Source: a virus
Strand: one strand, 5' to 3'
DNA length: 29,985 nucleotides
Virus record (IMG/VR): IMGVR_UViG_3300043436_000502
Location: 1-29,985 of that record
Both the position numbers and the translations under genes were made by a program. The notes below the pieces were generated by a model. It searched no databases. It worked only from the letters and a program-made list of their open reading frames with translations, and had not been told where the DNA came from. Below, one piece after another: positions 1-8,219 of the stretch. Each line of letters begins with the position of its first letter. Position 1 is the stretch's first letter.

Positions 1-667
1 AGTACCTGTCGAGAATCTTCTCCGTAAAGAAGCCAGCGGCCACTGACCAGATCCCATCAGGGATACCACTGGCCTCGTCAAAGATCACCATCATGCCGTC
101 ATGGTTGTGGACACCGGCATACGAGTCTGGGTTTTCTTCACTCCAGAGCTTACCCTCGGCGGCCCAGTACCGTGTGCCCTTCTTAAGGTCACGCTCAACC
201 AAATCAGTCAACCACGCAGCAGGTACCAGCTTGGTAGCACTCGGCTCCCACCAGTGCGAGTTGATGCTCATGGTGGCCCACTTGGTCAACTCACCCCAGG
301 TCACCGTTCTCAACTGGTTCTCGCTGTTAGCCGATACGATGACGCTACTACCTATCCGGGTACTCAGCATCCACAGGATCAACCACGACACCAGTGCTGA
401 CTTGCCAATTCCCCGGCCCGAGCTTACAGACCGCCTGAGCGCGTCCATGTCCAGCTTACCCTTGTTCTCTTTGATGTGCTCGGCGATCCTACGTAGTGCT
501 CTCCTCTGCCAGGCTCGTGGTCCTTTGAAGTGCTCGAGTGGGGTGTTCTTCTGCCCCCACGGGAACGCAAACAGCACAAATGTCTCAGGGTTGTCAGCAA
601 CCTGCGAACTCCACAACTGAGTCATCAGGGTCTGTTCGTCCTCTGGGGAGTAAATGGGTTTCTGCAT
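1..667 (-). CDS. Terminase large subunit, N-terminal part (partial)
   Basis: This is the ATPase motor that packages phage DNA into the procapsid. The reading frame is open from an ATG at 667 to the left edge, giving about 222 residues of ATPase domain; the nuclease domain lies outside the window. A Walker A motif SGRGIGKS is at about residues 83-90 and a Walker B MVIFDEA at about residues 200-206. The motif just upstream, GPRAWQRRAL near residue 50, is typical of large terminases. The start codon overlaps the stop of the small-subunit gene by one base (TGATG), which implies translational coupling. The family assignment is firm. The packaging type (headful or cohesive ends) cannot be read from this fragment. 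Confidence 0.93.
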   Translation of the reverse strand, partial: MQKPIYSPEDEQTLMTQLWSSQVADNPETFVLFAFPWGQKNTPLEHFKGPRAWQRRALRRIAEHIKENKGKLDMDALRRSVSSGRGIGKSALVSWLILWMLSTRIGSSVIVSANSENQLRTVTWGELTKWATMSINSHWWEPSATKLVPAAWLTDLVERDLKKGTRYWAAEGKLWSEENPDSYAGVHNHDGMMVIFDEASGIPDGIWSVAAGFFTEKILDRY

Positions 668-1218
668 CAGTCTGTCCTCGGCTCCACATCAATCACATCG
701 GCCTCGACGATACGGGCCCGAGCAGCACTCAGGGCATCGGTGATGCTGATCCCACCGGTCAACTCGATGTTGGTCGTCGCGCCGTACTTCTTACGGTTGT
801 GTGCTCCCATGAGCCACTTGCGCGTGTCGATCTTGAGCTTGGACCGGTTCACATCTTCCAGCGAGTCATCGGCATCGGCAATCTCAATGATCTCGCCAGC
901 CATGAACTCCGTGCGCATCTCCTGAGCCTCGTCAAAGAGTTGCTTGCGGGTCGGGTCTTTCTTGATCCACCGGTAGAAGTCGTTGTAGTCGATGTCCCGC
1001 TGGTCGTCCCGCAGCACTTGGGACAGCGACATGCCGTGGGCAATCGAGTCGATGGCTCGCATGAAGACCTGCTCATACTGTACGAGTACGAGTGCTTTGC
1101 CCTCTGGTGAGGGTTTCGGAGTTGCAGGCGCGGGGTCCAGCCAGTCTGGTAGCAGTGTGACATCTGCGCCTACGGATTGCTGATGTGGTGTGTCCATAGT
1201 GCCTATAGGGTAGCACAT
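667..1218 (-). CDS. Terminase small subunit-like protein
   Basis: A 183-residue protein directly upstream of, and overlapping, the large terminase gene, the usual place for the DNA-recognition subunit. The central part (residues about 45-110) has the helical pattern of phage terminase small subunits of the kind with FYRWIKKDP and RKQLFDEAQEMR, which resembles a helix-turn-helix region followed by an oligomerisation helix. The C-terminus includes a conserved-looking LKIDTRKWLMGAHNRKKYG segment, seen in many phage small terminases. The start is uncertain. The first ATG (1218) has no good ribosome site. A second ATG seven codons later (1197) has TAGGC about six bases upstream and may be the true start. 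Confidence 0.8.
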   Translation of the reverse strand: MCYPIGTMDTPHQQSVGADVTLLPDWLDPAPATPKPSPEGKALVLVQYEQVFMRAIDSIAHGMSLSQVLRDDQRDIDYNDFYRWIKKDPTRKQLFDEAQEMRTEFMAGEIIEIADADDSLEDVNRSKLKIDTRKWLMGAHNRKKYGATTNIELTGGISITDALSAARARIVEADVIDVEPRTD

Positions 1219-1261
1219 GTGTGAGCTTGTGTGTCATGAGTGGTACTGAACCCATTGGGTC

Positions 1262-1293
1262 TGTGGATCAATGAGAAATTTTATAAAAATTTT
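1262..1293. other. DnaA-box-like word next to AT-rich tract
   Basis: TGTGGATCA at 1262-1270 differs by one base from the DnaA box TGTGGATAA. It is followed after five bases by an uninterrupted A/T tract at 1276-1293. An ACCC-N3-GGGT box ends two bases before it. Box arrays plus an AT-rich unwinding tract are the usual parts of iteron origins. The AT tract could instead supply a -10 (TATAAA on the minus strand) for the terminase operon; I see no convincing -35 for that. Confidence 0.35.
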
Positions 1294-1372
1294 GTCTGAT
1301 ACCGCCGCTGCCGTGACCCTTGGCGCTCGGCCCTACCCCACCCCCTCGGAGCCGCGACACCCTGCACCCTGA

Positions 1373-1394
1373 TGTTAGTGAGTACTGACTAACA
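1373..1394. repeat. 22-base near-perfect palindrome
   Basis: TGTTAGT-g-AGTACT-g-ACTAACA is symmetric except for the two G positions flanking the centre. It lies 17 bases before the first box of the dense ACCC-N3-GGGT core. It is a likely dimer binding site or cruciform-forming element. No function is assigned. Confidence 0.6.
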
Positions 1395-1772
1395 TAACCA
1401 TGACACCCTGACCCGCTGGGTCAGTGAATCCATGCATCAATCCATGACCCGCTGGGTCAGTGTGACATCAGTCACAAGTGACGCACTCACCCTGTGGGTC
1501 ATTGTTACCCGCTGGGTCAGTGCATTACCCGCTGGGTCACCAGACGCATGACCCAATGGGTCAATTGGGGCAAAAATCCGGGTTTTTGAGGGCGAGTGCG
1601 TCAGGTGTGACATCGCGCGGGCGAGGGGTCGATTTACGACTTTTTGAAATAGGTCTTTTATTCTGGTTTTCCCAGAACCCCTTACCCTTCTGTAAGTCAC
1701 AAGTGGCGCACCGATACAGTAGACACCCAGCGGGTAAGGGTAAGCACTTAGAAACATTTATTTGTAGAGTAG

Positions 1773-1803
1773 TTGACCCGCTGGGTTAAAACCATGTTAA
1801 GAT
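1773..1803 (+). promoter_or_regulatory. Promoter candidate of the early small-gene operon, overlapped by a repeat box
   Basis: A -35 TTGACC (1773-1778) is followed by an extended -10 TGTTAAGAT (TG at 1795-1796, hexamer TAAGAT at 1798-1803). The spacing is 19 bases, slightly long. The last ACCC-N3-GGGT box (1776-1786) overlaps the -35 and spacer, so a bound protein would block polymerase. The first gene starts about 43 bases downstream at 1846. This is the only credible sigma-70-like promoter upstream of the operon. Confidence 0.55.
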
Positions 1804-2413: not shown

Positions 2414-3070
2414 ATGCCTAAAATTTCCATTACATCTAAGCTTGACGGTATCCGGTCATGGTCCCTTCAGGCTCTTGACACCTGCCCGGGGTCAATCGAA
2501 TCGCCCGGGGTGTTGGTTGACGCATGCAAGGGATGCTACGCAACGGGCGGGCGATACGCTATGAATAGCGTCAAGGCACCCCGGGAATTCAACCGTGCAG
2601 ACTGGCAACGCATCGAATGGGTTGATGACATGGTGGCCGAATTGGAAAAGGACCGATATTTCCGCTGGCTTGATTCTGGTGACCTTTACTCGCTGGCGCT
2701 GGCTGAAAAGGTCTTAGAGGTCATGACCCGGACACCGTGGTGCCGTCATTGGTTGCCAACTCGCATGCACAAATTCCCAAAATTCTTGCAAGTGCTTCGC
2801 GCCATGCAAGCCTTGGACAATGTATCGGTGCGCTTTTCCGCTGATTCGATAACCGGGGAATACATCCCCGGTTTGCACGGATCTGTTATCGGACCCAGTG
2901 CCGATACATTCCAAGATCATCCCGGCGCGTCATTGTGCCGCGCATACGAACATGACGGCAAATGTTCGGGTTGCCGCGCATGCTGGGATAAAACAATCCC
3001 CCTGATCTGCTACCCGGCGCACGGCCAAAAGATGGCCCGGGTTATCCGTTTGCAGGTGGTAGCAGCATGA
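2414..3070 (+). CDS. Phage gene-product-88-like cysteine-rich protein
   Basis: A 218-residue protein and the largest in the early operon. The N-terminus has TCPGS with C24, then C38-x2-C41 in ACKGCYATGGRY, followed by an Arg/Asn-rich stretch. The middle has WLDSGDLYSLALAEKVLEV and LPTRMHKF, and the C-terminus has five more cysteines (C175, C184, C187, C190, C199). The pattern Cys-Pro, CxxCYAxxGRY, then a GD-containing helix and a TR motif matches the gene product 88 family known from mycobacteriophages and other phages, which has no established function. The cysteines probably bind metal or an iron-sulfur cluster. The start at 2414 follows GAAAGAAA. Its stop overlaps the next start (ATGA). 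Confidence 0.72.
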   Translation: MPKISITSKLDGIRSWSLQALDTCPGSIESPGVLVDACKGCYATGGRYAMNSVKAPREFNRADWQRIEWVDDMVAELEKDRYFRWLDSGDLYSLALAEKVLEVMTRTPWCRHWLPTRMHKFPKFLQVLRAMQALDNVSVRFSADSITGEYIPGLHGSVIGPSADTFQDHPGASLCRAYEHDGKCSGCRACWDKTIPLICYPAHGQKMARVIRLQVVAA

Positions 3071-4349: not shown

Positions 4350-4649
4350 ATGACCGACAAAAAACCCCCTCAAAACCCCGAATTCGTGGCCGCACTGGCC
4401 GCACTAATCACCCGCCACCAGTTGACCGAAGCCCAATCGGCCACCCTATTGGGTGTCCCCGTGTTCACTTTGCGCAAATGGCGCACGGGTAGCCGTGCCC
4501 CTAATGCTGCCGCCGTGCGACTGGTGGAGGTGTTCGACCTGCTGGCAGTGCTGGCCCCTGCGATCCTGGCTGGCCTGATTCCAACGCCTGACCCCGTCAT
4601 GCCAAAGCGACCCCGCACCAAAGTAACCAAGACTGGAGAATCGAAGTGA
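4350..4649 (+). CDS. Helix-turn-helix DNA-binding protein
   Basis: A 99-residue protein with a helix-turn-helix of the XRE/antitoxin-like type at about residues 24-50: LTEAQSATLLGVPVFTLRKW followed by RTGSRAPNAAAVRL. The Gly before the recognition helix and the KWRTG ending are characteristic. The C-terminal tail (about residue 78 on) is basic and rich in Pro, Lys and Thr. It is likely a transcriptional regulator and a candidate for binding one of the palindromic arrays in this window; that link is speculation. The ATG at 4350 has a C-rich leader without a clear ribosome site. No promoter is obvious between the terminator and the start. Confidence 0.8.
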   Translation: MTDKKPPQNPEFVAALAALITRHQLTEAQSATLLGVPVFTLRKWRTGSRAPNAAAVRLVEVFDLLAVLAPAILAGLIPTPDPVMPKRPRTKVTKTGESK

Positions 4650-5372: not shown

Positions 5373-7847
5373 TTACTCCAGCAATTCAGCCCCATGCACT
5401 CGGGGCTTTTCTTTTCTGGACAGCCTGTATATCTCGTCCAGTTGGCGCTGCTTCGCATCGATCACGGCCTTACGGTGATCCTTGAACTGCACGGCCAGTG
5501 CAGGGTTGATGGCCCACTGGGCATGGTGCTGGTTCTCTTTGCTGCCGTCATCCATACGCATGACCCATCGGCCCTGCTCCAGTGGGTACATGGCCCCATA
5601 GATCATTTGATCCTGCTGCCACACGTTGACCTTCTCGATCTGACGCCGGGCTGACCGTTTGATCTCGGCTAGGGTGATGGTGGACTCGTCAGCGTGTTGG
5701 ATGATGTAGTCACGCAGCCAGGTGTCGAAGTTGGACGCACCGGACAACTCGGACAGGGCATACCGATAGGCCGGGACAACGTAGGACTGCACCATCTCAA
5801 TCACCCGCTTGGCAATGTCTGCCGACACCGTGATGCTAAAGGGCGACTCGATCAGGTGGAACATGAGCATGATGCGACCAGTCAAGCCCTCGATCTTGCC
5901 AAAGGCGGTCATGAAGGTATCGTCAGACTGGAGTAAGCGCTCGTCATTGCGTTTGCTGTCGTACCAGTCCTGGAACTCTTGAAACAGGACTTTGGCCTCG
6001 GGGGACAACTGGTAGGTCATCGCAGGCAGGGCAAACACAATCCGCAGGGTCTGCTCCCATTGGTCTTTGTTGAGCAGGTAGTCGGGGATCTCCACGGGCT
6101 TGCGGGTCAGGTCACCGTTCAGGATGCAGGGCACGAAACGCTGCACCAGACCATCGGCCGACAGGTTGTGCAGGTTTTCCCTAAAAACTCGGGGTTGGAT
6201 GTTGCCGTAGATTGAAACGGCCAGGTTCTCAGCGTAGATCGACCCACTACCTACCCGATCCATCTCATAAGGGGACGACTCGTAAGCCTTGACCCATGCC
6301 GAGCGATCCTCGCCGCTGGCCTTGTCGGTGAGCTTCCTCACCCAACTGTTCATCTCGTCCAAGGCGCACAGCAGCCCACGGGGACGATCAGCAGCCAGTC
6401 GCACCAGCTTCTGGCTGGTCACGTCATCCACGGTGATGCGAAGGGGCACGGGCTGGGGTGGCAGGTCGTGAACCACCGGAGCCTGATCGCCTGAGAGCAT
6501 CGCCTCGGGGCTGGCTGAGAACTCCAAGAATGCCTTTTTGCTTGAGGCATACATGGCCTCTTGACCCTCCCACTCCAGCAGCGCCTTGCCGTGGCGTGGG
6601 CGATCCTCGTGCTCTAGGTGCTTCAGCGGGGCCAGCATGGGCGCACTGCCCGGTGTCTTCTTGTCGGCCGGGGCACCGATGGTCATCAGCCACAGCACCG
6701 GGGGCACCTTAAAGTCTTTGATGAGTTCGAGTCGGGTACGAGCATCGACCACACCGCAGACAGCGGCCAGCCCTGCGAACAGGGGCACCAGCGGGTCACA
6801 GCCCACTGTTTGGCCGATCTCGCCAGCACGTCTAGCGATCACAGCAGGCCACAGGGATACATCCATCATCGGTGGCCGTGGCCGCAGGTCAACGATGACC
6901 GACTTTGGGTCGGCGGGAGCCTCCACAGCGGAGAACATGGCCGTGATGTCGGGCAGCGGCCGGGTCCAGCCATACTGCTTGGCGATGTGGAACAGGCTGC
7001 CCAGCTTGACGGCCGTGGCCTTGTCATTCTTGAAGCTGGTCCATTGGGCGATAATGTCTTTCTCGCCAGGGTACTTGGCCGAGGGCAAGGACCAGTCATT
7101 CCACAGCGTCAGTGCCGGGTCGAGTTGGTCTGTTTGTTCGCCAGCCCACTTGAGCGCCATGCCCACCGTGACCCACTCCTCTCGGGAGCAGTTGGGGCTG
7201 ATGGCCTCAAGGGCTGTTCGTATGTCTTCCCATGAGGCATCGACAGCATCGCCCGTGCCGATGGTGCGCTCCTTGTCCTGCGCCAGCAGGGTCTGCCACA
7301 GGTCGAGCAGGGGCTGAGGCACAGTAGGCAGTCGCGTCCAGTGACCCTTGCCTGCCCAGCGGTAGGGCTGGAGCGTGGCCGGGTGGATCGATGGGGGCAT
7401 GACATCTTGCACCGTCAGGCCGTTGGCCGTGGCGCAGCGTAGCTCGTAGGCCGTGACCCCGTTGATGAGGATCTTTTTGGATGGGAGCGCCAGGCCAAAG
7501 GGCATCTGGTACAGCAGCTTGCCGTGACCAGCCCTGCCCGAGTCCACGATGACAGCATCGTTGGCATCATACAACTCTTGCAGATTGATGCCATGCTGCT
7601 TGAGCGCCGTGGTAGTAGTGTCCCACTCGTCGATGTCCAAGGCCATCGTGCCGCTGTAGGCATGGGCCAGCCCGATGCCGTAGCCACTGGGCAGATCGGC
7701 CTGAGATTTGAGGGCGTTGTTCTTGACGTTCCAGCCAGGTGTGCGTGGGCCTTTGGTGCCTGCCGGGATGGGCACCAGTGACCAGCCGTGCCGGATGTAC
7801 GCATCGATGGATGCCGGGTGCGCTTGCACTGTAGGGATTGCTGTCAT
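5373..7847 (-). CDS. Primase-polymerase with DUF3987 helicase-like domain
   Basis: An 824-residue replication protein with three parts. Residues about 10-180 form an archaeo-eukaryotic primase-polymerase domain: the metal-binding pair D71/D73 in ALDIDEW, the SGRAGHGK motif with H108, the YELR strand with E135, and PPSIHP at 151-156. Residues about 205-292 fit a PriCT-2 domain. Residues about 330-720 match DUF3987, a helicase-like ATPase. Its P-loop position reads GAPADKKTP, which is degenerate, and LLCALDEMNSW is the likely Walker B. It probably primes and unwinds phage DNA. It is on the opposite strand from the polymerase and helicase genes. The ATG at 7847 has no ribosome site of its own and overlaps the stop of a leader ORF, so translation is probably coupled. 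Confidence 0.88.
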   Translation of the reverse strand: MTAIPTVQAHPASIDAYIRHGWSLVPIPAGTKGPRTPGWNVKNNALKSQADLPSGYGIGLAHAYSGTMALDIDEWDTTTTALKQHGINLQELYDANDAVIVDSGRAGHGKLLYQMPFGLALPSKKILINGVTAYELRCATANGLTVQDVMPPSIHPATLQPYRWAGKGHWTRLPTVPQPLLDLWQTLLAQDKERTIGTGDAVDASWEDIRTALEAISPNCSREEWVTVGMALKWAGEQTDQLDPALTLWNDWSLPSAKYPGEKDIIAQWTSFKNDKATAVKLGSLFHIAKQYGWTRPLPDITAMFSAVEAPADPKSVIVDLRPRPPMMDVSLWPAVIARRAGEIGQTVGCDPLVPLFAGLAAVCGVVDARTRLELIKDFKVPPVLWLMTIGAPADKKTPGSAPMLAPLKHLEHEDRPRHGKALLEWEGQEAMYASSKKAFLEFSASPEAMLSGDQAPVVHDLPPQPVPLRITVDDVTSQKLVRLAADRPRGLLCALDEMNSWVRKLTDKASGEDRSAWVKAYESSPYEMDRVGSGSIYAENLAVSIYGNIQPRVFRENLHNLSADGLVQRFVPCILNGDLTRKPVEIPDYLLNKDQWEQTLRIVFALPAMTYQLSPEAKVLFQEFQDWYDSKRNDERLLQSDDTFMTAFGKIEGLTGRIMLMFHLIESPFSITVSADIAKRVIEMVQSYVVPAYRYALSELSGASNFDTWLRDYIIQHADESTITLAEIKRSARRQIEKVNVWQQDQMIYGAMYPLEQGRWVMRMDDGSKENQHHAQWAINPALAVQFKDHRKAVIDAKQRQLDEIYRLSRKEKPRVHGAELLE

Positions 7848-8018: not shown

Positions 8019-8219
8019 ATGACAACCCCACCAAAATCAGCGTTCATGACTGTCCGAGTGACAGACAAGACGCGCACCAAGTTTCATGAGAAAGCACGAA
8101 AGATCGGAACCCCGAGCGAAGTGCATCGTGAAATCGTCGAGGCGTTCGTTGAAGACCGCCTCACAATTCAACCCCCTGTAACCCGTAATCTGGAGAAACT
8201 TTATGTCACTGGAAAATAA
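8019..8219 (+). CDS. Ribbon-helix-helix (Arc/MetJ-like) regulator candidate
   Basis: A 66-residue protein, ATG at 8019 with AAGGA upstream. Residues about 9-45 read FMTVRVTDKTRTKFHEKARK then GTPSEVHREIVEAFVE: a beta strand with alternating residues, helix A, a G-x-P/S turn and helix B, as in ribbon-helix-helix repressors. The strand would contact DNA as a dimer. It is the first gene after the palindromic divergent promoter, so autoregulation and control of primase-polymerase are likely but unproven. Its 3-prime end overlaps the next gene by 17 bases. Confidence 0.75.
   Translation: MTTPPKSAFMTVRVTDKTRTKFHEKARKIGTPSEVHREIVEAFVEDRLTIQPPVTRNLEKLYVTGK

Follow-up and report, generated by a model that had tools for sequence, protein, structure and literature searches.

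A helix-turn-helix protein as the probable reader of a palindrome array between the early and late genes of an uncultured podovirus family

What binds a group of short palindromes in the gap between the terminase and early genes of an uncultured phage, and to what effect? The stretch analysed here, called the window throughout, comprises positions 1 to 29,985 of IMG/VR virus record IMGVR_UViG_3300043436_000502. On one side of the gap lies terS, the first gene of the late block, which encodes an Sf6-type terminase small subunit on the complementary strand (667..1197; PF20901, PHROG 1482). Its start is likely 1197 rather than the upstream ATG at 1218, as judged from a CACTATG context common to relatives. 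On the other side is a rightward early block with small genes, a helix-turn-helix (HTH) gene at 4350, a RecB-like exonuclease, a single-strand binding protein, DNA polymerase B and a helicase. A PrimPol-PriCT_2-DUF3987 primase/helicase (5373-7847) is encoded on the strand opposite to the early block, in the same half of the record.

Exact matches to ACCCNNNGGGT number nine in the window, all within 1250-1786, and the rest of the 29,985-base record has none; the chance expectation for the whole window is 0.50 (sd 0.64; maximum 3 across 100 dinucleotide shuffles). Box 1 (ACCCATTGGGT, 1250..1260) lies upstream of the late (terS) promoter, with its centre 58 bp from the terS ATG. A central cluster is formed by box 2 (ACCCGCTGGGT, 1411..1421), box 3 (ACCCGCTGGGT, 1447..1457), box 4 (ACCCTGTGGGT, 1489..1499), box 5 (ACCCGCTGGGT, 1507..1517), box 6 (ACCCGCTGGGT, 1527..1537) and box 7 (ACCCAATGGGT, 1551..1561). 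Box 8 (ACCCAGCGGGT, 1725..1735) is second-last, upstream of the early promoter, and box 9 (ACCCGCTGGGT, 1776..1786) lies inside that promoter. The initial annotation had described nine boxes in this gap, five of them identical and the core irregularly spaced, and each of these points was borne out: five of the nine share the centre GCT, and the core spacings are 36, 42, 18, 20 and 24 bases. With such irregular spacings, a CRISPR or tandem repeat, which would call for regular repeat and spacer lengths, was ruled out. In 65 non-redundant arrays, which together have 513 boxes, the consensus reads (T)RACCC-R-N-Y-GGGTY(A). The inner bases are therefore constrained too, and of the ACCC-N3-GGGT form given originally the half-sites stand while the free centre is refined to R-N-Y.

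A search for three clustered boxes across 2.9 million viral contigs recovered 119 stretches. Homologues of window proteins were found in 79 of these, and wherever terS was present the array lay in the same gap. The other 40, mostly with three or four boxes, had no family homologues in the stretch and were set aside as unrelated. On these comparisons of sequence, the array is a trait of a family of podoviruses of ~37-39 kb, located between terS and the early operon. The nearest named phage, DSL-LC05 (OR003940.1, 37.6 kb), has six boxes in the same gap; it was obtained from Dishui Lake water and a family, Luchaoviridae, has been proposed based on it (PMC10611076). Arrays in relatives typically contain 6-10 boxes, and up to 17. 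The 700-base gap stretches of 65 arrays, which were preselected for the box, hold 500 exact sites against 0.8 in shuffles, and outside the gap the box is rare in the ~37-39 kb relatives. Two checks proposed at the outset, that the word should always occupy this gap in related phages and that it should not be equally frequent elsewhere, thus came out in favour of the array.

The position of the last box suggests one function. A candidate promoter for the early operon lies at 1773..1803 on the + strand, with TTGACC at 1773-1778, a 19-base spacer and an extended -10 TG..TAAGAT (TAAGAT at 1798-1803), and box 9 overlaps its -35, as had been described. A simple promoter scan with a strict spacing of 16-18 returned none in the window gap, where the spacer is 19. 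Among the arrays, a good sigma-70 promoter coincides with the last box in 88%, with cluster boxes in 3% and with the first or second-last boxes in 18%. Two geometries predominate: the commoner is TTGACA-N5-box-TATAAT with a 16-17 base spacer, and that of the window (TTGACC overlapping the box, box start -3, spacer 19) recurs in ~20 other arrays. Relatives also have a recurring box ~40-60 bp ahead of the last one, as box 8 is in the window. Because a bound protein would block either promoter geometry, repression is the natural reading, and the earlier proposal of a repressor array gains support from this placement of the last box. Gene 4350 lies downstream on the same strand, so that box 9 overlaps the promoter of the operon that would encode its own regulator; presence of the HTH gene within the early operon would therefore imply negative feedback.

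The first box is placed differently. On the - strand, a candidate late promoter at 1207..1237 has a weak -35 (ATGACA) and an extended -10, TGCTACCCT, 15 nt before the terS start; this -10 falls within the longer terS frame (667-1218). In relatives the extended -10 TGNTANNNT is present in 51 of 74 arrays, usually 15-16 nt before the terS ATG, and the late -35 is poorly defined. The distance from the first box to the terS ATG is 48, 59 or 69 bp in 104/108 arrays, while distances of 52-56 and 62-66 do not occur; the window falls within these common classes. The first box would thus keep the same helix face. Over the terS tree the distance classes switch ~44 times, about as often as shuffled labels. 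Spacing in whole helical turns is what a protein facing RNA polymerase commonly produces, and an operator upstream of a promoter in such steps is the arrangement of a class I-type activator. Because the distances step in this way, activation of the late block by a protein on the first box appears likely; the phasing could also reflect a contact other than polymerase.

Since terS adjoins the array in the arrays examined, and the binding sites of TerS proteins are mostly close to the genes that encode them, the boxes might instead be a TerS recognition (pac) site. We consider this very improbable, because phages with 90-98% identical TerS carry different boxes, phages with ~40% identical TerS share the same box, and boxes sit at fixed positions in the early promoter.

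The initial annotation had offered the HTH protein at 4350 as one candidate binder, and covariation with the boxes now supports it. The gene (4350..4649, + strand) encodes a 99-aa XRE-type protein with the recognition helix V36-P-V-F-T-L-R-K43-W44. An AlphaFold2 model (39 homologues) shows an XRE fold of five helices (10-23, 27-34, 38-46, 53-68 and 70-76; pLDDT 86), the third being the recognition helix. The nearest solved structures are HigA2, C.AhdI and C.BclI, and XRE proteins make up nearly all of the top PDB matches, at weak Foldseek E-values (0.05); the Pfam HTH_31 match is below cut-off. In a sequence alignment to HigA2, K43 falls on Asn72 and R42 on Glu71 (the numbering of the solved chain is one off from the paper's), and both of these HigA2 residues contact bases in the operator complex (PMC11006873).

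For an unselected comparison, relatives were fetched by TerS, PrimPol or the HTH protein and not by the box. This gave 113 non-redundant gaps with an HTH gene, 92 with Lys at the K43 equivalent and 21 with His, Asn or Ser. Of the 92 Lys gaps, 76 had four or more exact boxes, and of the 21 others none did (Fisher p 4e-13, ignoring descent); the 16 remaining phages that keep Lys43 have fewer than four exact boxes, the array being partly degenerate. At half-site position -4, Lys phages have C in 83% of their half-sites, His phages in 33% and Asn phages in 19%; in the latter two groups G or T mostly takes its place. Several of the 21 non-Lys phages keep boxes with the outer base changed, typically AGCCANTGGCT or ACCCAGYGGATCA, and in several of them boxes of the AGCCANTGGCT type occupy the standard promoter positions. 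In one Asn phage (L395) the early promoter reads TTGACA-acgtg-AGCCAATGGCT-TATACT, with AGCCAATGGCT exactly where other phages have ACCCANTGGGT, and variant first boxes lie at 48, 59 or 60 in six of seven cases. The third check proposed at the outset, absence of the box from relatives with the same gene order, therefore has a qualified answer: it is not generally absent, and is absent where the recognition helix has changed or the HTH gene is missing.

Descent could produce such an association. The change between Lys and non-Lys occurred ~5 times on the terS tree, giving three well-supported independent pairs, all agreeing or neutral; these are too few for significance after phylogenetic correction, and we regard the covariation of K43 and box across them as suggestive. 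In a column-by-column association with the -4 base, run without RHH columns because too few loci have both genes, HTH column 30 (K43) ranks third of the 618 tested; co-inheritance alone lets other columns look much the same, and descent has to be counted as a real confounder. One pair of phages breaks this confounding. L269 and L272 are alike in TerS (96% identical), PrimPol (99%), the RHH protein (100%) and much of the gap flanks, whereas the HTH protein is only 54% identical and the box cluster is replaced. Two phages with TerS and PrimPol and no HTH gene detected nearby (L185 and L191) have no boxes in the gap. Taken together, the HTH protein at 4350 is the best-supported box binder on these comparisons.

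The other candidates fare poorly against the same pairs. Phages of this group encode a ribbon-helix-helix (RHH) protein, at 8019 in the window, which had also been put forward as a binder; it is present in 16/16 genomes checked, and RHH operators can be similar short palindromes. That it binds the boxes is the least probable of the readings considered and a very faint prospect, because it is 100% identical in L269 and L272, and nearly so in L249 and L233, despite differing boxes, while the residue in its strand just ahead of the conserved V-R is not constant (T/V/S/N) in phages that share one box. We therefore no longer hold it as a candidate, and TerS and PrimPol were rejected as binders on the same ground, that near-identical copies accompany differing boxes. 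A host transcription factor was a further option and is also highly unlikely: the box sequence follows the phage HTH protein and not the rest of the phage, and phages missing the HTH gene have lost the standard boxes as well. Of the initial proposal of a dimeric binder encoded by phage or host, the phage-encoded dimer is thus indirectly favoured by the covariation of recognition helix and half-site, and the host factor is not.

The central cluster is harder to assign. Its boxes have no promoter, and neighbours show slight helical phasing (R 0.13). The cluster might be a replication origin, with the boxes serving as iterons for the HTH protein or the primase/helicase and the AT-rich stretch at 1268-1295 melting. 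An irregular cluster of 4-7 palindromes beside a conserved AT-rich element would fit an origin, and transcription control does not directly explain boxes that lack a promoter. We nevertheless find this reading unlikely, since the first and last boxes follow promoters, L191 has the AT-rich element although it lacks boxes, and the 99-aa HTH protein has no known initiator domain. In addition, an iteron initiator should track the repeats, and the one initiation protein recognised, PrimPol, does not: phages with differing boxes have copies of it that are 99% identical. GC skew in DSL-LC05 does not single out the gap and is uninformative. The earlier suggestion of a replication initiator acting on iterons is accordingly not supported, and what stays of it is the central cluster as a doubtful origin. 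The cluster may serve in cooperative loading, in looping or in a second, replicative role.

We hypothesize that the phage's own HTH protein has these boxes as its operators, and that it would repress the early genes and probably activate the late ones; we hold this reading, drawn from sequence, to be the probable one. The XRE protein (4350-4649) would bind each palindrome as a dimer, with Lys43 of the recognition helix reading the C:G pair at half-site position 4. Early in infection the promoter at 1773-1803 would be free and would drive the early operon, with the HTH gene, 2.6 kb further on, among its genes. Accumulating HTH protein would then fill the array; on the last box it would occupy the early promoter and switch off early transcription, that of its own gene included. 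At the first box, whose centre is ~55 bp upstream of the late start, the protein would face RNA polymerase and probably activate the weak late terS promoter. The central cluster would probably load or stabilise the protein cooperatively. Comparison of sequences establishes the array itself, its conservation, its covariation with the HTH protein, the placement of boxes on promoters and the helical phasing, whereas we infer the binding, repression, activation and timing, as well as the role of the cluster.

Operator arrays and XRE phage repressors are already known, and each familiar system resembles this one in part. The best solved structural match to the HTH model, the XRE protein HigA2 of Vibrio cholerae, is an antitoxin and autorepressor, and control of its own operon is likewise how we read the 4350 protein. 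The HigA2 operator is an inverted repeat that starts just after the -35 and covers the -10, contacted at the positions aligned with R42 and K43 (PMC11006873). HigA2 differs in having a toxin partner, a disordered toxin-binding tail and one operator, TGTACGC-N5-GCGTACA, whereas no toxin gene was recognised beside the phage HTH gene, and the phage has many operators with N3 centres. By fold, the restriction-modification C proteins C.AhdI and C.BclI are similar small XRE dimers. In a single region C proteins are known to use one operator for activation and another for repression, with two adjacent operators at one promoter; in contrast, the phage box array spans two divergent promoters. Lambda CI/Cro and P22 c2 share with the system proposed here an HTH protein made from the region it controls, operators on divergent promoters and, in lambda, activation dependent on helical face. 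Unlike lambda and P22, these phages would use one protein only and an unrelated box, and the divergent pair is early versus late genes. They may also differ in lifestyle: no integrase is annotated in DSL-LC05 (the window itself is incomplete), and no prophage relative was found in 84,980 species. From the absence of PrimPol relatives in 84,980 genomes of bacteria and archaea, these phages would seem to leave no prophages. Iteron origins such as those of lambda O or plasmid Rep similarly place several repeats near an AT-rich stretch, but the phage boxes are inverted repeats, irregularly spaced and on promoters, and the protein that tracks them has no initiator domain.

Neither the box, the divergent early/late layout nor the matched recoding of operator and recognition helix was found in the open-access papers searched, in keeping with the initial statement that no described phage system was known to have this exact box. 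We put at about even the broader proposition that one ~100-residue XRE protein on an operator array forms an early-off/late-on switch throughout a whole uncultured, apparently lytic podovirus family, with recoding from ACCC to AGCC matched by Lys43 to His or Asn, as a natural series of protein-DNA coevolution. Such a switch would supply a definite programme of transcription for a large, mostly aquatic group of uncultured phages that are known from little besides contigs. Because regulator and operator changed together in a natural series, the XRE specificity code becomes directly testable. Comparing relatives from metagenomes can also indicate which protein binds a DNA site even when no isolate exists.

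Several further features of these loci were recorded. In the window a conserved non-coding element occupies 1268-1350, between box 1 and the central cluster; it is AT-rich and then reads TTCGTGATGCC..CCG..GGCCCTACCCC, is also present in relatives without boxes (e.g. L191, partly) and has no shared RNA fold. An RNA structure or riboswitch was rejected, as the conserved leader has no Rfam match and no shared fold. A second repeat, GTCACANNTGRCGCAC, has three copies in the gap (1471-1486, 1596-1611 on the - strand, and 1696-1711) against 0.07 expected. Two of its copies flank a conserved element with TCGCGCAGGCGAGG; in relatives this element separates the cluster from the last two boxes. The two conserved non-box elements between box groups may be the real origin or packaging signals. 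The corresponding gap of L191 (4700-6000) carries an inverted-repeat array of an unrelated kind, AAACATC-N11-GATGTTT, which looks as though regulator and operators had been exchanged together as one module. Eleven ACCCACTGGGT boxes lie within ~300 bases (88-382) of L025, an apparently unrelated 171 kb viral contig. A GP88-family gene at 2414-3070 is present in the window and a few relatives, and absent from the other 15 genomes checked. Inserted genes of ~163-189 codons occur between the cluster and the last boxes in L034, L037, L039, L046, L050, L070, L079, L111, L115 and L239. The one in L039 is an HNH endonuclease gene (Pfam), and most of the others share the C-terminal motif HLGYFA..ERDAA.
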